Part shown: one piece after another, positions 3,486 through 56,100 of the stretch | Position numbering within the stretch: position 1 is the first letter of the stretch | How the letters are laid out: each line of letters starts with the position of its first letter | Virus record (IMG/VR): IMGVR_UViG_3300042507_002862 | Location: 1-60,520 of that record | DNA: 60,520 bases | Source of the DNA: a virus | Reading direction: 5' to 3' (one strand) | Notes under the pieces: model-generated | What the model saw: the letters and a program-made list of their open reading frames with translations, nothing else | Databases searched by the model: none | Told to the model about the DNA's origin: nothing | Made by a program: the position numbers and the translations under genes

Positions 3486-3778
3486 TGGCCCGCATCGACT
3501 TTGACCTGGATGACCTGACGCAGGCTGGCCTGAAGAGGCTGGTGAAGCAGCTGCTCGCCGCCAGCGACGAAGAGGAAAAGAAGATCGTCGCCAAGCTGGG
3601 CAAGCACAACGACTCTGAAGAGAAGTCAGAGGGCAAGCCACACAAGCAGAAGAACGATCTAGCCGATCTCCATGACGAGATGCACGGCAAGCCCAACACC
3701 CCGATGGTCGAAGACGATGACGGCCCGCTGGACGGCGAAGAGATGCCCGAGATTCCGAAGAAGAAGGGGAAGAAGTAA
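3485..3778 (+). CDS. Small highly charged protein
   Basis: 97 residues, starting as TAATG on the stop of the previous gene. Acidic and lysine-rich segments alternate and the tail is lysine-rich (KKKGKK). No hydrophobic core is obvious, so much of it is probably disordered. It might act as an assembly chaperone or DNA-contacting internal protein, but nothing in the sequence decides this. Confidence 0.7.
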   Translation: MARIDFDLDDLTQAGLKRLVKQLLAASDEEEKKIVAKLGKHNDSEEKSEGKPHKQKNDLADLHDEMHGKPNTPMVEDDDGPLDGEEMPEIPKKKGKK

Positions 3779-4869
3779 TGCCCAACCCTGCGCGTTACGC
3801 GGATGACGCTGTCGATGCTATTCGCCGCATGCTCACGTCAGGTGGCGTTGTGCTTCCACCCCCGGGCGCTGCGCGAGCCGCCGCCGAAGTGGTTATCGAC
3901 CCGGCCATTGCCGCCCGCGCCGCAAGGCAGGCTGAGCTTCCTCTGGGTGACATTCCAGCGCCGTCCGCCCCCACGCACCCAGGCGCCTATCTAGACCGCA
4001 TGAGGACCGCGCACTGGGTTGACGCCACAGAGGGCTCTAGAGGCCCGCATAACATTTTCCCCGACGTTGCGCCGCTGGACCCGCAGTCGGCCCCAGACCT
4101 TCAACTTGGCTCGCCGCTCTGGAATCAGATGGATCAGCGGGCCACCGCATACGACAACCTCCTGAAGGGGCGCACTGCAAACCTTCGCAACCAGCCGTTC
4201 GCCAAGCCCGCCCAGGCTGCAATCCAAGAGGCCAATGCCAACTCCTCCAAGATGCGTGCTGCCATGGAGGCGTCCGCCCAGCGCGGCGAACTCATGCAGG
4301 ATGTTGCCCTTATTGGGGCCGGCGTAGCTGGTGCTGGCGCGCTAGGAGCAGGTGCGCTTGCTCTGTCTGGTGCTGGCGGTACGCCGGAAGCCGCAGCCAC
4401 TCCCCCCAAGGCTGCGCCTCCCGCCGCGGCGCCGAAGCCTACTGCCGCGCCCCCCAAGCCCGCCGGCGACGAGCCGCTGACCTCCACGGAAGGAACGGCA
4501 GACCTTGCTAGCGAGGCTCGCCCGGCACCTGCAGTGCAGTCTTCCACCGACCCGCGCGAGCAGGCCCAAGAACTGATCGCTCAGCTGAACCAGATGCGGC
4601 GGCAGGCTGGCGGCGAGGTGCCAGAAGCCAAGCAGATGACGGCGGAGATCAACCGGCTGTTGGCTCTCAGCAATCAGAAGCGCAACGCCACGCCTCCGCA
4701 GCAGGGGGCCAGCGATCCGCACAGCCAAGCCCAGGCTCTCATCGCTCAGTTGAACGAGATGCGCCGCAAGGCGGGCGGTGAAGTTCCGCAGGCCCAGCAG
4801 ATCATGGCTGAAGTGCGAAGGCTTCAGGCCATGGGCGACCAGCAACGCAACGTAGCACAGACCCGATAG
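3778..4869 (+). CDS. Virion protein with membrane-like segment and internal duplication
   Basis: 363 residues, TAATG overlap with the previous gene. A helical N-terminal half leads to an Ala/Gly hydrophobic segment (about 178-200) that could cross or insert into a membrane. A Pro/Ala linker (about 205-235) follows. The C-terminus carries two tandem copies of a roughly 58-residue helical repeat, each with AQxLIAQLNxMRRxAGGEVP (about 263-282 and 321-340). A membrane-active segment in an internal virion protein would fit genome ejection, which is inference. Confidence 0.78.
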   Translation: MPNPARYADDAVDAIRRMLTSGGVVLPPPGAARAAAEVVIDPAIAARAARQAELPLGDIPAPSAPTHPGAYLDRMRTAHWVDATEGSRGPHNIFPDVAPLDPQSAPDLQLGSPLWNQMDQRATAYDNLLKGRTANLRNQPFAKPAQAAIQEANANSSKMRAAMEASAQRGELMQDVALIGAGVAGAGALGAGALALSGAGGTPEAAATPPKAAPPAAAPKPTAAPPKPAGDEPLTSTEGTADLASEARPAPAVQSSTDPREQAQELIAQLNQMRRQAGGEVPEAKQMTAEINRLLALSNQKRNATPPQQGASDPHSQAQALIAQLNEMRRKAGGEVPQAQQIMAEVRRLQAMGDQQRNVAQTR

Positions 4870-21691: not shown

Positions 21692-22077
21692 AGCATCTGC
21701 CCGTGATCATAGCGGTGGTGGTAGCGGCGCTGGCCTTTGTGCCCGCCGCCAAGAAAGCGGACGGCCCGGTCGCAGCTGCGATGGCAAGTGCCAGCCGATC
21801 TGACCGCGCCCACCTGAAGGGAATCTACCTGTCGCTGGCCGATGTCACTGAGAAGGACAACGGCAAACTCATCAGCACCGTAGGCATGTGGCGACAGCTG
21901 CATATCAACACGCTGAAGCTGGCCGCTGCAGACATGCGTGGCAAGTACGCTGGGCTGGACGTTGCCGTTGAGAAGGTGATGGCCGAGAAGTTCCCGATGG
22001 ATGATGTACCACTTAGCACCTCGCTAGTGAACCAGATCGCAGCTGCATGCCGGGAGGTCGCGAAGCAGAGTGAGTGA
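21688..22077 (+). CDS. Exported or membrane-anchored helical protein
   Basis: 129 residues from the ATG at 21688 (ATGA overlap). The N-terminus KHLPVIIAVVVAALAFVPAA is a signal peptide or anchor. The remainder is helical, with basic and acidic residues and one Cys near the end (AAACREVAKQ). Function unknown; placed directly before the intein-containing protease and overlapping its GTG start by eight bases. Confidence 0.68.
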   Translation: MKHLPVIIAVVVAALAFVPAAKKADGPVAAAMASASRSDRAHLKGIYLSLADVTEKDNGKLISTVGMWRQLHINTLKLAAADMRGKYAGLDVAVEKVMAEKFPMDDVPLSTSLVNQIAAACREVAKQSE

Positions 22078-24205
22078 CTTCGTACCGCTCAAAGCCTACG
22101 ACGATGGCATGCAGGGCTGGATCAACAGCGCCCGCGAGCGCGTCTTATGGCAGGAGTCCCAGCCCCGGCCGATCTACTCTGAGCCGAATAGCATGGGGTC
22201 CGGCGACGGCAAGCGTGCCCTGCTCTGGCAGTACGTTCGCAAGCTAGACCCACTGTCGTTCACGGAAGTTCAGACGGTAGGAGATTGCTTCGTTGCGGGC
22301 ACCTTGGTTCGCATGGGCGACGGGACCGAAAAGCCCATCGAAGCTATCTCAACAGGCGATGAGGTGGCGTCCCCATTTGGTGGCATTCGCAGGGTACTGT
22401 CTGTCTTTAGCAAGCCGTACCAAGGCACCGTATGCAGCCTTACCGCGGAAGGCTGTATGGATTCCGTGACGGCAACCGAAGACCACCGCTTTGTGTCGTT
22501 TGTTAACAAACAAGAGTTCATCTGGGAGTCTGCTGGTGGCCTGTCTGTTAGTGACCGCATGTTCGTACCGCGCACAGAAATTACCAGAGAAGCGCCGCAT
22601 GTGTTTGACCTATCTGGCGAGCATGGCTGCGCCTCCGATCCGAACGAATTACCCGACGCGCCTACACACAACAGCCGCAGGCTGAAAGCTGATGACGGCA
22701 TGGTGCGCGTCACAAATGGAAAGTATCAGTGCCGCCGACACGTTGAGCTAGACGCAGAAGTGGCATGGCTTATTGGTCTATGGCTGGCGGAAGGGTCTAC
22801 CGACAAAAACAAGAACGGCGAACCAATATCGTTGACGCTCAACTTGGCAAGCGACGAAATGCTGATAGCCAGCAAGGCCAAGAGCATTGTTCAGTCTCGT
22901 TTCGGAACGCCTGCCAAGATCGTAACCATTCCATCAAAGCCGTCTTGCCTGTTTGTTAACATCGCAAGCACGCCGCTGGCTCGCTTAGTGTACCGCATCT
23001 GCGGAAACGGGAACGTGTACAACAAGCGAGTGCCAAAAGAGATACTGACTTCCTGCCGGTCGGTGCGCATGGCATGTCTGCGGGGATGGATGGAAGGCGA
23101 CGGTTGCGTGATGAACAAGCCACGCTCTGGTCGGCCTCAGTACAAAATGTGCAAGGCAAGCGGCGTCTCTGTATGCCGCCCGCTTGTGCGAGACATGAAA
23201 TACCTGGCGGTTTCCTGCGGCGTGCGATGCACGGACACGGCACGCAAGGCGCGCGGGCGTTCACGCGCGGCATCAGAGCTTCACTTCTACGGAGAAGGCG
23301 CGGTGGCTGTTATGCCGTCGCGCTTAAAGACACCAGCGGCAACACGCGGTTCGACTGTGTGGCGAGTGGCTGGTGGGTTTGCTCCGCGAGTCAAATCCAA
23401 TGTCCGCTCGCAGTTTGCAGGCACCGTGTACTGCATAGAAGTTGAAGAGGATCACGCCTTCGTTGCTAACGGATACGCCGTTCACAACTGTGTCAGCCAC
23501 TCCAGTCGGAACGCCCGGGATTGCACGCGCGCGGTGCAGGTATTGCTAGAGAACAGGCCAGAGTCTTTCGTTAAGCGCGGCGCAACGGAGCCCACCTACG
23601 GGGCGCGTGGCCACAGCGGCGAGGGCATGGTCCCCGCCAGGGCGGCGACGTTTGAAAGGGATGTGGGTTTCTGCATCCGGCAGAAGTACGAACCAGTTGA
23701 TCTCTCCAAGTACAACGGCAACATCGGCACCAACTGGGGATCGTCCGGCGTGCCCAACGCAGTTGCAGACATCTGCCGCCAGCACAAGGTGGGGATCATT
23801 CGACAGATCACCACCGTGCGCGATGCGATGGACGCACTGGCCAGTGGGTACGGCCTTCACTCAGGTCAGTACGCCAAGTGGGCTGGCTCACCCAACTCAC
23901 AGAACATCCATCCGCGACAGGCGGGCGGCTGGTCGCACGCAATGGCCACAGTCGGAATGGACGACACCAAAGAGTTCTGGCCGTTCACTGTATTTTTTAT
24001 CGCCAATTCTTGGGGCGGTTGGAACCAGCCAGTGAAAGACTGGCCGTCCTCCTACCCAGAACAAGTACCAGGGATGATCGTCACCAAGGCAGATGACTGG
24101 GCCGTGTGCGTCACCGATGGTGACTGCTGGGCCTACGGAAACGTCGATGGATTCCCCCCTCAGAAGCTGCCCGACTACGGCGCTATCGGACTACTGCAGA
24201 CATGA
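22070..24205 (+). CDS. Papain-like cysteine protease interrupted by an intein
   Basis: 711 residues from a GTG start. Residues 73-473 form an intein and the flanks join to a 310-residue protease. The spliced product contains QTVGDCVSHS with the catalytic Cys474, His623 (GGWSHAMATVGMD) and Asn646 (IANSWGGW), the Cys-His-Asn order of C1 (papain-family) peptidases. A Gln sits five residues before the Cys, close to the oxyanion Gln of papain. No signal peptide or clear propeptide is visible. Because the intein ends directly before the nucleophile, the unspliced precursor cannot be active. It overlaps the previous gene and the next (ATGA), within the peptidase/membrane cassette. Confidence 0.92.
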   Translation: MSDFVPLKAYDDGMQGWINSARERVLWQESQPRPIYSEPNSMGSGDGKRALLWQYVRKLDPLSFTEVQTVGDCFVAGTLVRMGDGTEKPIEAISTGDEVASPFGGIRRVLSVFSKPYQGTVCSLTAEGCMDSVTATEDHRFVSFVNKQEFIWESAGGLSVSDRMFVPRTEITREAPHVFDLSGEHGCASDPNELPDAPTHNSRRLKADDGMVRVTNGKYQCRRHVELDAEVAWLIGLWLAEGSTDKNKNGEPISLTLNLASDEMLIASKAKSIVQSRFGTPAKIVTIPSKPSCLFVNIASTPLARLVYRICGNGNVYNKRVPKEILTSCRSVRMACLRGWMEGDGCVMNKPRSGRPQYKMCKASGVSVCRPLVRDMKYLAVSCGVRCTDTARKARGRSRAASELHFYGEGAVAVMPSRLKTPAATRGSTVWRVAGGFAPRVKSNVRSQFAGTVYCIEVEEDHAFVANGYAVHNCVSHSSRNARDCTRAVQVLLENRPESFVKRGATEPTYGARGHSGEGMVPARAATFERDVGFCIRQKYEPVDLSKYNGNIGTNWGSSGVPNAVADICRQHKVGIIRQITTVRDAMDALASGYGLHSGQYAKWAGSPNSQNIHPRQAGGWSHAMATVGMDDTKEFWPFTVFFIANSWGGWNQPVKDWPSSYPEQVPGMIVTKADDWAVCVTDGDCWAYGNVDGFPPQKLPDYGAIGLLQT
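22286..23488 (+). mobile_element. Intein with LAGLIDADG homing endonuclease
   Basis: 401 residues within the protease. It starts with Cys (CFVAGTLVRMGDGTEKPIE, block A), has the TxxH of block B (TEDH, host residues 136-139), two LAGLIDADG helices (LIGLWLAEG near 234 and LRGWMEGDG near 337), block F (IEVEEDHAFVANG) and the splice end AVHN followed by Cys474. All splicing residues are present (Cys1, His-Asn end, +1 Cys), so it should splice. Endonuclease activity is likely but unproven. Confidence 0.93.
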
Positions 24206-24895: not shown

Positions 24896-25112
24896 AACTG
24901 AACTGTGGATGCTCGGCATATCGGTTGCCGCAGCCGTCATCCCGTGGGCTTTCAGCCTGCATGCCAAGGTCGCGGTCATCGCCAATAGCGTGGAGAGTTT
25001 GCCCCGCATGCTGGACGAACTGCGACAGACGATAGAGGAACATGAGGTTCGTCTCAATCAGCATGACAAAAAGATTGAAGCTCTCGGCCAAGCGTCAACG
25101 ACTGGTCGTTGA
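24885..25112 (+). CDS. Membrane-anchored coiled-coil protein
   Basis: 75 residues. One N-terminal membrane segment (about 7-24) is followed by a coiled coil with HEVRLNQHDKKIEAL (about 53-67), reminiscent of small phage proteins that work with holins (haemolysin XhlA-like), though here the membrane segment comes first. Its 3' part overlaps the start of the sigma factor gene by 71 bases. Confidence 0.6.
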   Translation: MSPETELWMLGISVAAAVIPWAFSLHAKVAVIANSVESLPRMLDELRQTIEEHEVRLNQHDKKIEALGQASTTGR

Positions 25113-25629
25113 GTACATGCCGCTAGCAGAAATGCTGGCCAAGTATTTCCTGCAGAACCGCCCGCACTGGCAGCGAGGCGTGCTAGTAGCAGACCTGCAG
25201 AGCGAAGGCTACCTCGCCATCTGCAAAGCGGCTCGCACCTATGATCCCAAGCGACTGCCCTACCCAAAGGCGTACTTCGCACGGGCCTGCCTCAATGCGA
25301 TGTACAAGCAGATCAAGAAGTTGAGCCGTCAGCCTGGCGACATACGCATCACGCTGGAAGAAGCGGCCGACCTGCTGCCAGAGTTCGACCATTTGGATCA
25401 CATCAGACTGGCGATAGCTGATCTCCCAGAGTGGGAGCAAGAGCTAGCTACCGACAGGTTCATCCACGGCAAGACACTCAGAGCGCTGGCTGAGTCGCAT
25501 GAAATTTCGCTTCGCGCTGCTGCTCGGCGGTCCACTGCTCTGGCGAAAGTCTTGGCGGGATCCTTGGGTATCCAGCTACCGCAGCCCGGTGCAGATTCCT
25601 TGTGTCAGTCAGGCCATAGTAGCCCCTGA
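25042..25629 (+). CDS. Sigma-70-family RNA polymerase sigma factor
   Basis: 195 residues; start ATG at 25042 with a close GAGG, alternative ATG at 25063. Region 2 (about 50-92) reads DLQSEGYLAICKAARTYDP then a YFARACLNAMYKQ helix, the -10 recognition and core-binding pattern. Region 4 (about 124-176) reads AIADLPEWEQELATDRFIHG followed by a helix-turn-helix. It should bind host core polymerase and direct it to phage promoters, probably the virion operon (inference). Last gene of the early/middle operon, with its 3' end overlapping the convergent serine recombinase by 152 bases. Confidence 0.85.
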   Translation: MRFVSISMTKRLKLSAKRQRLVVEYMPLAEMLAKYFLQNRPHWQRGVLVADLQSEGYLAICKAARTYDPKRLPYPKAYFARACLNAMYKQIKKLSRQPGDIRITLEEAADLLPEFDHLDHIRLAIADLPEWEQELATDRFIHGKTLRALAESHEISLRAAARRSTALAKVLAGSLGIQLPQPGADSLCQSGHSSP

Positions 25630-26251
25630 CACCCTTGTGATTGGGCGGCTTGCGAAGTTCCTTCTTGCATAGGTGCAGGCAGATGGCGGAGAAGGACTTC
25701 CCCTCCTCGCGCATGACCACAACCAGACTGCCGATGTCACGCTCCGGTTGGTAGGGAACGAACGCCTTGTTCTTCACCACCCAACCAAGCGGTCGCAACT
25801 TACCGCGTGGTCGGAAGTGGGCGTTGAGATAGGAATGGATCTCACGCTGTCGCTGCCCGGAAATCTGACTGCTGTACTGGGCGAACGCGGACATGGTGTT
25901 GTAGCTCAACTCGCCTTGGATCGTCATCACATCCAGGCTGTTGTCCAAGAACTTCAGCTGAACGCCAAGCTCTTTGCACTGAGCCAAGGTCTGCGCCGCA
26001 TCCAGCACCGACCTGAACACACGGTCGAAGGTGCAGAACACCACCACATCGCCGGCCTTCAGCTTGTCCCATAGCACCCTGCCCTGCCGGCGCTTGTGCA
26101 AGGGGATCTTGTACGCCGACTGATCCTCGTCAACGAACACCTCCCCAAACTCCAAGCCCGACTGCTCAGCGTACGCACGCAGCCGGATAGCCTGGGCATC
26201 AGCTGAGTTCTCTTGCTTGTCCGTAGACACACGGGCATATCCGTACAGCAT
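25478..26251 (-). CDS. Serine recombinase (resolvase/invertase family)
   Basis: 257 residues. The N-terminal catalytic domain has YARVSTDKQ with nucleophile Ser9, VVFCTFDRVFRS (about 70-81) and the long helix around QYSSQISGQRQREI (about 125-138). The C-terminal 110 residues are basic, with a possible DNA-binding helix pair (IGSLVVVMREEGKSFSAICL) and are longer than in classical resolvases, shorter than in large serine integrases. It could resolve multimers, invert DNA or integrate. Last gene of the - strand block, with its end overlapping the sigma gene antisense. Confidence 0.9.
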   Translation of the reverse strand: MLYGYARVSTDKQENSADAQAIRLRAYAEQSGLEFGEVFVDEDQSAYKIPLHKRRQGRVLWDKLKAGDVVVFCTFDRVFRSVLDAAQTLAQCKELGVQLKFLDNSLDVMTIQGELSYNTMSAFAQYSSQISGQRQREIHSYLNAHFRPRGKLRPLGWVVKNKAFVPYQPERDIGSLVVVMREEGKSFSAICLHLCKKELRKPPNHKGVRGYYGLTDTRNLHRAAVAGYPRIPPRLSPEQWTAEQQREAKFHATQPAL

Positions 26252-32203: not shown

Positions 32204-33031
32204 TTACGCTTGGAGAATGGGCAGGTTGGCGACAGCGGTCATAATCGCATTGCCACCATGCCCGGGGATGTACACATCACGCATAGCCAAGCCGATCTTG
32301 CGGACACCGGCACCGTCGCACAGCCTGCAAGTCAGGCAGCTAAGACGATGGCCAGCCTCCAAAGATGCTGGGCACAAGACTTCATCCGTAGAAGGCTCAC
32401 CTCCACGCATGGTGCGGAAGGTGCGCCATCCGAGAGACTTGGCATGTTCACGGGACCACGGCCCCGTCAGACCATGCACACTGGCCATGAAGAACTGCTT
32501 GTATGGAGCGTAGGTCAGGTTGCTCCACGCATGGGTGTAGCCCGTCCAGCCGTCTGAAAGACCGGCCAGATGCTGCACCAGGGCAAGCGGTATCAGCACC
32601 GGCTCACCGTATGTACCGAACCGGATCTTGCGATCACGGATGTACTGGTCATGCATGATCGGATCGTATTCAACGTACCGACCACGCATGAAGGCACCGT
32701 AGACCATTGCTGGCCCCTGCCCGACGTTGACATAACACGCACGCCAACGCTTTGGATTACGCTTTGCGTTGGCCGGGGTCCGCTTAGGAAAGCCGACCAG
32801 ACCACGCATGGGGCAGTTGAAACAGATGGCCCCATCTTGTTCTTCGCGTACCGCCACCACTGGGTGCATATCAGCCCTAAGAATATAGGTCTGAAGCATT
32901 GAGCCGGTCTTCTTATTCTTGGAATTCCGCAGTGGCATGATCACCACATACGGCGAACCGTCATAAGGAGACACGCCCCGGTGCAGAATGACACCCAGAG
33001 GCTTGGCGGTACGTATACGGCGAATTGCCAT
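32204..33031 (-). CDS. Conserved phage protein of unknown function
   Basis: 275 residues from the ATG at 33031, chosen because GGAGG lies five bases upstream. Motifs YILRADMHPVVAV, ICFNCPMRG (CxxC, about 70-78), RACYVNVGQGPAMVYGAF (about 97-114) and a C-terminal CLTCRLCDG occur together in a large group of phage proteins whose function I do not know. The Cys pairs suggest a metal centre, possibly iron-sulphur or zinc. The basal position in the operon implies early, strong expression. Confidence 0.75.
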   Translation of the reverse strand: MAIRRIRTAKPLGVILHRGVSPYDGSPYVVIMPLRNSKNKKTGSMLQTYILRADMHPVVAVREEQDGAICFNCPMRGLVGFPKRTPANAKRNPKRWRACYVNVGQGPAMVYGAFMRGRYVEYDPIMHDQYIRDRKIRFGTYGEPVLIPLALVQHLAGLSDGWTGYTHAWSNLTYAPYKQFFMASVHGLTGPWSREHAKSLGWRTFRTMRGGEPSTDEVLCPASLEAGHRLSCLTCRLCDGAGVRKIGLAMRDVYIPGHGGNAIMTAVANLPILQA

Positions 33032-33152: not shown

Positions 33153-33362
33153 TCACTTCACCTTCACTGGCCGACCATCTTTCATGGTCACTTGTGCATA
33201 CCAGCGGTGAGGCTGGGGATAGTGCGGACCCTCAACGGTGAACGTCCCGTTGCGGTAATCGCCACCCCCGAACGGCCCAGCCTGGTACAGCCCGAATGCC
33301 ATACCTTGGGCAACAGCCTCTTTCAGCTGTTTCTTAGACTGAAAGTTATGCTCACAGTACAT
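33153..33362 (-). CDS. Conserved phage protein (EGPHYPxPH type)
   Basis: 69 residues from the ATG at 33362 (AAAGGGGG site), preferred over the ATG at 33425 because the conserved part starts here (MYCEHNFQSKKQLKEAV). The middle FQAGPFGG-like and EGPHYPQPHRWYAQV segments are found in many phage proteins of unknown function, here in slightly changed form. First gene of the - strand operon. Confidence 0.7.
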   Translation of the reverse strand: MYCEHNFQSKKQLKEAVAQGMAFGLYQAGPFGGGDYRNGTFTVEGPHYPQPHRWYAQVTMKDGRPVKVK

Positions 33363-33419
33363 TGCGCCCCCTTTGCTGCCCGCATGCGCAGTAGTTAATC
33401 GTTCCCCCTTCTGACATTG

Positions 33420-33450
33420 ATACATGCGATTGCGGTCGTACAGAAAATTC
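33420..33450 (+). repeat. Direct repeat copy 1
   Basis: ATACATGCGATTGCGGTCGT followed by ACAGAAAATTC. It matches copy 2 at 33591-33621 with four mismatches, 171 bases apart. Probable protein-binding or promoter element. Confidence 0.75.
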
Positions 33451-33590
33451 TAAGATTTTCCGCAGCCGCTGATCGCATATGCAATGGTCAGCATGAGACG
33501 TTAACCCCGACGCTGGTCGGTTGAGTAACTTACAATCGGCGATCGTTATAGGCTCCCGATTGTCTCTCCGAGTGTTTCGGAGACTCGCCA

Positions 33591-33621
33591 ATACATGCGG
33601 TTGCGGTTGTACATAAAATTT
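33591..33621 (+). repeat. Direct repeat copy 2
   Basis: ATACATGCGGTTGCGGTTGT followed by ACATAAAATTT. Second copy of the element at 33420-33450. It ends 22 bases before a -35-like TTGACT. Confidence 0.75.
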
Positions 33622-33642
33622 TCAGAGCATCGGATTTTTCTA

Positions 33643-33671
33643 TTGACTATGAAACAGACAGCCGATAGAAA
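33643..33671 (+). promoter_or_regulatory. Putative promoter of 33718 gene
   Basis: TTGACT (33643-33648), 17-base spacer, TAGAAA (33666-33671). The upstream part, TTGACTA followed by four bases and ACAGA, recurs at 34590, in front of the virion operon. Confidence 0.4.
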
Positions 33672-33717: not shown

Positions 33718-34404
33718 ATGCACATTAACTACGCGGGCAAGGAAGTATGGCTTTCGGAAGACATGGCCCGACAGGTGGGGGAAGCCATTGACCGCTATAT
33801 AGGCCGACATGGCGACTTGCAGAATCCGGCCATGCTTCCCCGTCATGACCGGGAAGACATGCGGCAAACGATCATGACCGATTGGATGGGTGCCGATTGG
33901 CTAGACCTGTGTTTTCGGCATCTCACCAACACGGGACGCCATATCTTCCCCGCCGATGGTAACCCTATGGATTACCACCTACGGGGGGCCCTGTTTATGG
34001 CCGGCAGGGCAAGGGTACGACGTTGGCACGGGGAGGAAGACAGCACTACCATCCCAAGCCTACGGGCCCGTGGCATGACCGACTTCAGCGGGGCAGGCAT
34101 GGGTAGCCGAACCGCTTCCCCCGATAGGATTCTGGAAGCCATTGAAACGGCAAGTACCATCGGCATCCGGCCAGTATCAGACAGGGCACTACGGGCCCGC
34201 CGCAGGCAAGTCAGAACCCGCCGTAGCTTCCAGTACATTGTCAACGTAGTGGCCCGCTACGATGACAGGACGGCCATCCAGATAGAGAAGGTAGCACAGT
34301 ACAACTACAGGCAGGCGGGGAGCGTACCCAACCGACAGACCCCCAAGGGGAAGCCCTGCAAGGCCAGCCCATCGGACAGCCTGCGAGAAGCCATCCAAGG
34401 CTAG
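33718..34404 (+). CDS. Isolated basic protein, possible regulator
   Basis: 228 residues from the ATG at 33718 (GGAGAG site). N-terminal helical region (about 10-50) with RHDREDMRQTIMTDW, then FMAGRARVRRWHGEE and a strongly basic segment RARRRQVRTRRSFQYI (about 159-174). It has its own promoter-like and terminator signals. Basic helices and monocistronic position suggest a DNA-binding regulator, but no known fold can be named. Confidence 0.7.
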   Translation: MHINYAGKEVWLSEDMARQVGEAIDRYIGRHGDLQNPAMLPRHDREDMRQTIMTDWMGADWLDLCFRHLTNTGRHIFPADGNPMDYHLRGALFMAGRARVRRWHGEEDSTTIPSLRARGMTDFSGAGMGSRTASPDRILEAIETASTIGIRPVSDRALRARRRQVRTRRSFQYIVNVVARYDDRTAIQIEKVAQYNYRQAGSVPNRQTPKGKPCKASPSDSLREAIQG

Positions 34405-34414
34405 GCCAGCCGGT

Positions 34415-34455
34415 AAAACCCCCTCCCCCGCAAGCCGTGGGGAGGGGGTTTTTTT
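34415..34455 (+). terminator. Strong rho-independent terminator
   Basis: AAAACCCCCTCCCC (34415-34428) pairs with GGGGAGGGGGTTTT (34439-34452), 14 bp, followed by TTT to give seven T. The A-run on the other side makes it work in both directions. It insulates the 33718 gene from the virion operon. Confidence 0.9.
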
Positions 34456-34886
34456 ATGCCAGCCAGGCGGACTATACGGGTGTACACCCTCGGCGGACTA
34501 GGTGTCCGATGGGGAGGGGGGGGCGATGCATGCCAGCCAATCCCCGGGGAAAATCAATGTTCACCAAATCGGTAATGTATCCCATGGTTTTGACTAGCTT
34601 ACAGAGAGAACGCCATAAGTGTAGGCGGGCCATAGACTTAGGGAACGGGGGGGAGGGCAGGAGACACGCACTAGACCCCCCTCCCGCCCCCAACGCGGAA
34701 GCGGATTATTGTCATATCCACCCCTGGATTTTTTCCACCCTCTAGCCCCCACATGTCGCTTTTTCCCCTCTTCCACGCCACATCGCCGCAATCTGTCGCT
34801 GCGTGACTCCAATGGCTTAGCCCTATTTTCCAGCCTTCTGCGTGTCCGCTGTCGCCGCGGGGCACTTGCCTAGTAGGAGGGCATCG
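34456..34886 (+). promoter_or_regulatory. Virion-operon leader and promoter region
   Basis: 431 bases without a convincing gene. Holds a promoter-like TTGACT (34590-34595) with CATAAG at 34614-34619, G-rich and C-rich tracts (34642-34652 and 34676-34689) able to form a G-C hairpin, and a TAGGAGGG site for the first virion gene. Likely start of the late transcript. Confidence 0.45.
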
Positions 34887-53167: not shown

Positions 53168-56100
53168 TCAACATCGAAAAATTCGCTGGGCTGGTAACCA
53201 ATGCGTCTCCGTACTCACTGCCTCCCGGCGCAGCCGTCACGCAAGTCAACGTGCAGTGCCTGTCTCCCGGCCAGCTGAGCGTGCGCCCTGGCATGCAGGC
53301 GTACACGCTGTCTAGCACGGTGTCTGCCACTCGTCCTGTGGTGGCGTCGTTTTCTTTTCAGCATGCGGGCGGCAGCGTGATTGTCTACCAAGACGCTGTA
53401 GGCACTATCTTCTCTGGAAGGTCTACGGCTTCGGACGGCGCACCATCGCTGACCGGCGTCCCCAGCGCGCCGCTCAACGTGACGGCGGTTCCTCAGACCT
53501 CGTCCGTGGCCCTGGACTGGGATCCGCCGGCCGTCACTGGGGGCAGCGACATCACGGGCTACACTGTGCAGGTGTCGCTGGACGGCGGGACCGTGTGGAG
53601 CTACGCGCTCTCCGCCACTGCCAGTGCTGCCACTGCTGCTGGCCTGACGAACGGTCAGGCATATGTGTTCCGCGTGGCGGCGACGAACAACTACGGAATT
53701 GGGCCCTACAGCGCGGCATCTGCGTCAGCCACTCCGGTTGGTGCGCCGGCATCACCGACCAATCTCTTGGCGACCGCTGCCAACTCCGGTGCTTCGCTGA
53801 CATGGTCTGCGCCCACCAACAATGGCGGATCCGTCCTCACCGACTATGCGGTTGAGTACAGCGCCAATGCCGGTCAGGCGTGGACGGTCTTTGCGGACGG
53901 CACCTCCACTAGCACCTCCGCCACCGTTACGGGCTTAACGAACGGTCAGGCATACGTGTTTCGCGTGGCGGCTCGCAACGCAGTTGGGACGAGCGACTAC
54001 GCCACATACATGACCCCTGTGTATCCCATTGGCGTGCCCGACCAAGTGGCCAGCCTGACCGCGACCCACGGCAACGCGCAGGTGACATTGCAGTGGCAGG
54101 CACCCTCTGCCAACAACGTCGGCGGAATCACAGACTATGTCATTCAGCGATCTACGGATTCAGGGGCGACGTGGTCTACGCTGTCGGACGGCACAAACAC
54201 AGACACCTCCTACTTTGTCACGCAGCTGACCAACGGCACGGCCTATCAGTTCCGTGTGTCGGCAGTCAACTCCGTGGGGGCGGGACCATACTCCGCTTCC
54301 ACAGGCAATGTGACCCCAAGAACACTCCCGGGAGCCCCCACCGGCCTGACGGCCACGCCCGGGAATTCTCAGATCGCCCTGTCATGGACCGCCCCAGCCA
54401 GCAGCGGCGGGGCGGCAATCACCGACTATCAGATCCAAGTGTCTGTGGCTGGCGGGGCATATTCTACCGTCACCAAGAGCGCTAGCACTGCAACGTCCTA
54501 CACCGCTACCGGCCTGACCAATGGGACCGCTTACACCTATCGCGTTGCCACCGTCAACTCAGAGGGTGCCAGCGCGAATGTGACTTCGTCCTCAGTGACG
54601 CCGCAGACCGTTCCTTTGGCCCCAACCAATGTCGCCGGCACAGTAGGCAATGGATCTGTGACAGTGCGCTGGTCGGCACCGACCGATGCCGGCGGAAGCG
54701 TCATCACAGACTATCTGATTCAGTATTCCACGGACGGCACGTCTTGGACAACCGTTTCTGATGGCACGTCTACCGTCCTGCAGACAACTGTCGCCGGACT
54801 GACCAATGGAATTTCTTACACGTTCCGGGTCGCGGCGGTGAGTGCGGTAGGAACGGGAAACTACAGCACCCCTAGTGCTGCCTGCGTCCCGATTGGGCCC
54901 CCGGGTGCGCCGACCAACGCTGCGATCAGCGGCGGCAACACTCAGATGTTCGCCAGTTGGACGCAACCCACGTCCACGGGCGGCACGCCGATCACCGGCT
55001 ACGTGCTTCAGTATCGCCGCAGCACAACCACCACATGGACTACCTATGGGACGGTGGATGCGGTGCTGGAGTATACGATCTCGGGCCTCACCAACGGGTT
55101 CACGTACTTCTTCCGCGTGGCCGCTGTCAACGCAGCCGGAACCGGAGCCTACAGCGCGGAGTCCGCAAGCGTAGTGGTTGGCCAGGTTCCCGTGGCGGTG
55201 GCCACGCCAACGATCACCAGCAAATACGCGACCAGCCTTACAGACACCACGCTGACTCTGTCCTGGACCGCCCCCAACGCCTACGGCTCGCGGATCACAG
55301 ACTATCTCGTCCAATACAGCACCAGTTCTTCTGGGCCGTGGACGCTGCATGCTGACGGCGCGGGCACCGCCACTTCGACCACAATCACTGGCTTAAACGC
55401 GACTACGGCATACTATTACCGCGTGGCTGCAGTGTCCACCGTGGGGGCGGGCCCGTACACGTCAACGCCCGTTACAGGCGTTATCGCAACCGCGCCCGGC
55501 ACCCCCACCGTTACCGCAACGGCTGGCGCTGGGTTTGTGACCATCACCTGGACGGCTGTGGACGATGGAGGGGCGGCTATCACTGGCTACAAGCTGTACT
55601 ACCAAGTCGGCACTGGAAGCACGCTCAGCGGCAACACCATAGACCAAGCGATCTACAACGCCAAGATCGACTGGTCCGCTCGCACGGCGATTGTTCCGGC
55701 CTGCGGCGGCCTGCCGCAGTGGAGGGCGCAGCTTGCGTTCACCAACTTTGCGGCCACTGGTTCGTACGGTGCCTCCAACTCCGTGACGCTCATTTCTGGC
55801 ACTACGGCCGATTCGCACTCCATAGATTCTGTGGAGTTTGCCGGTGGCGCGTGCGTGCTGAACGTCACGCTCCCAGCCAAGGGCCCCGCGTGCGGCACCG
55901 AAGACTTGGCGTGCGACTACAGCACGGACGCCGGGGCAACGTGGACGGCAGTGTCTCGCCCCAGCGGCATTCAGGCTTACCCGACATCGCCTGCAGGCAG
56001 GATGTGGCGTGGCTACCGCGGGACAGGCAAGGCGAAATACTGGATTTCCCCGGCTCCCAGCAGTCCGTTCCGAATTCGCTCTCTTGTGTCTAATGGGATA

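Follow-up and report, generated by a model that had tools for sequence, protein, structure and literature searches.

Two long direct repeats in a divergent control region of a phage genome are probably the cognate sites of a hypervariable regulator encoded to their right, with which they form an exchangeable control cassette. The best reading is that this cassette functions in the manner of an immunity or early-control region of a phage. The window, that is, the whole stretch of 60,520 bp analysed here (IMG/VR record IMGVR_UViG_3300042507_002862), had been described in the initial annotation as carrying an operator-like array at this place, and three lines of evidence backed that description: relatives kept the layout, the boxes showed a footprint, and the repeats changed in step with the 33718 family.

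The repeat pair and its surroundings

The two 31-base repeats first noticed in the sequence (33420-33450 and 33591-33621) were real, with 27 of 31 bases identical at a distance of 171 bp. They were located, as had been stated, between opposite units, namely a leftward unit with a small ORF (start at 33362) and a rightward gene (ATG at 33718). The copies could be extended to 36 nt each (33420-33455 and 33591-33626), with 86% identity and a start-to-start distance of 171. The parts of the control region were as follows.

33153-33362, minus strand: 69-aa ORF (MYCEHNF...) that opens the leftward unit
33376-33391, minus strand: 16-bp element CTGCCCGCATGCGCAG, in the gap that separates copy 1 from the leftward gene
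33411-33491, no strand: imperfect long dyad, arms 33411-33430 and 33472-33491, 70%; copy 1 forms the left arm
33420-33455, plus strand: repeat copy 1 (box 1), adjoining the leftward transcription unit
33565-33583, no strand: short hairpin with a 7-bp stem, between the two copies
33591-33626, plus strand: repeat copy 2 (box 2), oriented as copy 1, directly left of the rightward promoter
33643-33671, plus strand: sigma70-type rightward promoter TTGACT-17-TAGAAA, by sequence match
33718-34404, plus strand: regulator gene, 228 aa, of a hypervariable family; N-terminal domain modelled like sigma region 2
34415-34455, plus strand: strong intrinsic terminator closing the regulator unit, by T run and fold energy

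In 200 dinucleotide shuffles, the 450-bp region never scored above 13, compared with a repeat score of 26 for the real sequence. With up to three mismatches allowed, the 22-base repeat core had two matches in the window and none in each of 100 shuffles, and a 30-base pattern matched only the two copies in the contig, where a scan allowing 9 mismatches in 30 found no third copy. 31-mers with at least 27 identities at a spacing of 40-329 occurred at one other place in the whole window, a tail gene at 53.6 kb. A 53-bp direct repeat (53629-53681 and 53920-53972, 85% identical) was located within a tail fibre-like gene. An exact pattern search of IMG/VR returned zero matches. A provisional consensus pattern for the boxes was discarded, its matches being scattered and the reversed control just as good.

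An inverted repeat and a hairpin had also been reported between the units. Copy 1 belonged to the imperfect dyad (70%), and the hairpin barely exceeded shuffled sequence (z -1.5; 20 of 200 shuffles folded equally well). Dyads resembling that of the window were also found at copy 1 in L007 and L022.

Conservation of the layout in relatives

Relatives were collected by a search with the leftward gene at 32204-33031 ("DUF", equal to phrog_2554 and annotated as of unknown function), which gave 34 related loci, and searches with the regulator added more. The control region of the window was tested together with 26 others taken from related contigs, giving 27 distinct ones, with identical control regions (L006, L011, L026, L028, and L043) counted once. 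In the automatic test, a long direct-repeat pair was the best repeat at the same place in 21 of the 27; 20 of these pairs reached the lowest p that 200 shuffles allow (0.005), and L016 reached 0.010, with one shuffle as good. The test chose another repeat or none in six control regions. By eye or homology, a pair was recognised in five more (L004, L009, L012, L023, and L041), and L010 had a single copy. The spacing of the pairs was 122-209 except in L014, whose control region (upstream of 2878) contained three direct box copies, 54 and 91 apart, and one inverted copy, the largest number of boxes seen. A pair with a spacing of 211 was also present in JAGYIQ010000016.1, a phage contig assigned to a Pirellulaceae MAG, and 0 of 200 single-base shuffles were as good.

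Among loci L003-L037, the window's own motif occurred in three: L003, L007 (spacing 171), and L022 (spacing 187), the first two of which share one contig. Many other loci contained a different long direct-repeat pair at the same place. Absence of conservation, which had been named as a reason to give up the operator array, was therefore not what the comparison revealed, since the layout of the repeats was kept. L022 also had a near-identical copy of the 69-aa leftward ORF. Outside this set, two stretches of the window showed no DNA similarity among 50,697 phage records, and tblastn found neither the portal nor the regulator in phage records; relatives of the leftward DUF protein, at less than 60% identity, were present in 147 of the 50,697.

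The repeats track the regulator

Judged from sequence, the repeat follows the right-hand gene (33718-34404 in the window) and neither the leftward DUF gene nor the ECF sigma factor. When the 210 repeat pairs were ranked by similarity, the top 13 all had a regulator score of at least 0.53. The Mantel correlation between repeat and regulator similarity was 0.78, and 0 of 5000 permutations were as high, with a weak rank correlation of 0.22 across all 210 pairs. For the 153 pairs with a DUF, the rank correlation was 0.28 for the regulator versus 0.20 for DUF. This test covered the regions with an automatically returned box pair and omitted L004, L009, L010, L012, L023, and L041. There were counter-cases: the regulators of L015/L016 and L019 scored 0.54-0.55, but their repeats were dissimilar.

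Individual pairs of phages showed the separation directly. L023 and L024 shared 268 of 269 DUF residues and 228 of 232 sigma residues; their regulators agreed at 24 of 80 positions over the aligned part, and their repeats differed. L004 and L006 (with L005 proteins used in place of the L006 DUF and regulator) agreed at 189 of 190 sigma and 272 of 275 DUF positions, with regulators at 32 of 102 and different repeats. The window and L004 had DUF proteins identical at 271 of 275 positions, regulators at 19 of 87, and different repeats. The reverse was seen in L023 and L027, where the sigma factors matched at 103 of 221 positions, the regulators at 128 of 187, and the repeats were the same. Type-specific regulator/site pairs were thus found exchanged among related phages, as far as sequences can tell.

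When the boxes of four phages were searched in 13 near-full records, matches with at most one mismatch were limited to their own control regions. At this threshold, L027 and L045 each had two matches to the L027/L045 box, both in the control region, and the other records had none. The L023 copy of this box had two mismatches, and 13 further matches at 2-3 mismatches, in several records, looked like chance. The L020/L024 pattern hit three sites within the control region of L020 and three within that of L024, and 0 in the other 11 records.

Edges of the differing block and footprint of the boxes

On the right side, identity returned in L023/L024 (a 95.6% stretch) at the stop codon of the regulator gene and in L004/L006 (80.7%) 7 bp beyond this gene. 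On the left side of L004/L006, a 98.8% identical stretch stopped 11 bp past the 16-bp element. In L023/L024, the element was located within a 36-bp island (97%) inside the differing block, and differing DNA extended about 700 bp further to the left. At the rightward promoter, L004 and L006 had a further 86 bp in common (87%). The right edge of the cassette would be the stop codon of the regulator, and its left edge the element at 33376-33391 or a place further left.

The 16-bp element was found in all 28 of 28 modules at up to three mismatches, and shuffles needed at least four; in the window it had one exact site and one 3-mismatch match (2.1 expected by chance). In many relatives, the region corresponding to 33376-33410 contained the element followed by a palindrome of the form GAGTAA-TACG-TTACTC. 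A conserved RNA structure in this leader was considered and found unsupported, because the alignment fold was -0.7 kcal/mol and the leader of the window folded worse than 199 of 200 shuffles. Since an RNA fold was unsupported, the element and the palindrome may act as a DNA site or a crossover site.

The repeats and the regulator are neighbours, and linkage alone would make both travel together. In six diverged pairs (WIN-L022, where WIN is the window, L027-L045, L023-L027, L023-L045, L013-L017, and L013-L051), the hand-picked boxes, those of L023 being chosen by likeness to L027, were 0.73-0.93 identical, compared with 0.53-0.61 for the interval and 0.46-0.51 for shuffled sequence. The DNA of the interval was near saturation while the boxes were kept, which argues against mere linkage. 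Five closer pairs were uninformative for the footprint because their interval was conserved too.

Promoter signals and transcription units

Over 28 modules, the rightward sigma70-type promoter had a mean score of 8.7 versus 7.3 in shuffles (p 9e-6) under a scoring scheme devised for this analysis, although in several single modules the score was not above shuffles. With the same scheme and modules, no sigma70 signal was found on the leftward strand around copy 1 (7.2 versus 7.4 shuffled). Read leftward, the boxes of most modules had by eye a TA-rich, -10-like end, which in copy 1 of the window was ATGTAT. An extra, inverted copy of the box was located between the promoter and the start codon in six modules (L014, L019, L020, L021, L024, and L058), and none was seen in the window. 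The stretch 34405-34460 folded at -31.3 kcal/mol (z -3.9), and with this strong terminator at 34415-34455 the regulator formed a one-gene unit in the window.

The regulator protein

The regulator that had been missing from this genome is most likely the 33718 product. The family comprised 26 aligned sequences with 11-94% identity to the window protein, of which L014 and L018 were placed by position and alignment only. Three groups of regulators were linked via N-terminal profile comparison, with probabilities of 86%, 95%, and 89%. The AlphaFold2 model of the window regulator had a pTM of 0.49, with residues 1-100 confident (nine blocks of 10 residues at 91-97 and a further one at 81). Sigma region 2 occupied 16 of the 17 top rows in VIA-align, representing about seven distinct proteins with Z scores of 4.5-5.8 (below 8). 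The best sigma match in Foldseek had an E of 1.3, which is not significant, and hhalign of the regulator against sigma profiles gave a probability of at most 3.5%, with reversed decoys at about 0.1%. No match to a Pfam sigma family (Sigma-70 region 2 or 4) was found in the window protein or 10 relatives, profile searches against solved structures gave nothing convincing, and a viral structure library held no significant match to the model. An ED..Q......W pattern was seen by eye in the regulator at the place which we take to match ECF sigma region 2. The resemblance of the N-terminal domain to sigma region 2 is suggestive and comes from one structure model; that of the L019 regulator (pLDDT 63) was too poor to use.

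Mode of action and alternative explanations

In the proposed mechanism, the product of 33718-34404 would recognise both repeats sequence-specifically, and the sites and the regulator would be swapped together among related phages as a control cassette. The regulator would be made from the sigma70-type promoter at 33643-33671, and its transcript in the window would stop at the terminator. It would act back on copy 2 beside its own promoter, and also on copy 1, the expected start of leftward transcription. At copy 1 it may switch the leftward unit on as a sigma-like factor or activator; this reading, although tentative, is slightly more likely, because the -10-like end of copy 1 lacks a sigma70 -35 and the N-terminal domain is modelled like sigma region 2. 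A more specific form of it is rather doubtful, namely that a sigma-like factor and its own promoters set the specificity of early control and that the pair has diversified into many orthogonal forms, which are traded as a cassette in place of a repressor and its operators.

The same pair could possibly work in the opposite sense, as an immunity repressor that would shut the leftward unit in the lysogen and limit its own synthesis, its variants being heteroimmune types. The inverted third site between promoter and start codon suits repression over activation, and the confinement of the sites to the control region in the cases searched, the one-gene regulator unit with its terminator in the window, the exchange of modules between near-identical phages, and a serine recombinase (25478-26251 in the window) in 13 of 15 viral records are all in line with it. 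The recombinase also makes lysis-lysogeny or early-late control, as initially proposed for the region, plausible. Against repression, copy 1 showed no leftward promoter signal of the sigma70 type that could be shut off, and the protein model resembles sigma region 2 and not a known repressor fold.

It is improbable that the repeats are iteron-like replication or partition sites with the neighbouring gene encoding an initiator or centromere binder. An initiator with its sites could account for direct repeats in one orientation that change with the adjacent protein, but there were two copies only, far apart and with the signal of a rightward promoter next to them, and the scanned proteins included no recognised initiator or partition family. 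Still less probable is that the repeats are promoters read by the conserved ECF-like sigma factor (25042-25629). A sigma region 2 gene was present in 13 of 20 records and the boxes are promoter-like, but the sigma factors were 98-99% identical in L023/L024 and L004/L006, where the repeats differ, and 47% identical in L023/L027, where they agree; a factor that does not track the repeats is unlikely to read them. A neutral duplication hitchhiking with the neighbouring gene by linkage, which their physical closeness would allow, is the least credible explanation given the six pairs in which the repeats were kept with an interval near saturation, and the dissimilar repeat pairs that occupy the corresponding position in many modules.

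Comparison with known systems

The nearest described parallel found is the cluster A mycobacteriophage system, in which a repressor with helix-turn-helix domains is described as acting at more than 20 13-mer operators/stoperators genome-wide (PMC9283540, PMC6550527). As described there, both systems appear to combine a small phage regulator with asymmetric sites that share one orientation, and to have motifs that change with the repressor to give heteroimmune types among related phages (PMC9283540, PMC6550527). The present arrangement differs in having two or three long sites within the divergent region and a protein that matched no recognised repressor family. The open-licence literature searched contained no description of such a system.

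The arrangement also recalls the lambdoid immunity region in its divergent control, regulator unit, sites near both promoters, and exchange as a block. Lambda operators, however, are short dyads bound by dimers, whereas the sites here are long and asymmetric and the regulator is unrelated. With ECF sigma region 2, the protein would share the predicted N-terminal fold, a suggestive likeness, but it differs in lacking a Pfam match, in its very diverged sequence and, for the window protein, in the absence of a region 4 that could be recognised.

The analysis names a likely regulator in a genome where none had been recognised. The dozen or so regulator/site types in related phages, grouped by eye, form a natural series that makes the diversification of control specificities directly testable. 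If the sigma likeness is true, they would be a new set of orthogonal transcription factors.

MAG contigs and other features of the genome

Profile A5 found two regulator-family contigs in one Pirellulaceae MAG. An earlier genome-contig scan with alignment A4 had found no relative, a negative that is unreliable because A5 recovered two members from the same collection. A 55-kb phage contig of the Pirellulaceae MAG was collinear with the structural genes of the window. L112 (1-5006), a 5-kb Pirellulaceae MAG contig, had a gene of the regulator family at 3756-4355 and a leftward ORF resembling that of the window, with a gene for a 535-aa trypsin-like protease of bacterial type beside the module; this arrangement may be the trace of an integration or a mixed contig.

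The sigma and serine recombinase genes of the window overlap tail to tail (25042-26251). The ends of the contig (1-489 and 60032-60520) repeat 489 bp at 98.4% identity (481 of 489), so that the genome, with a length of about 60.0 kb, is probably complete and either circular or terminally redundant; the mismatches are probably strain variation in the overlap. An intein-like gene with LAGLIDADG and Hint matches was located at 22070-24205, in a frame of 711 aa.
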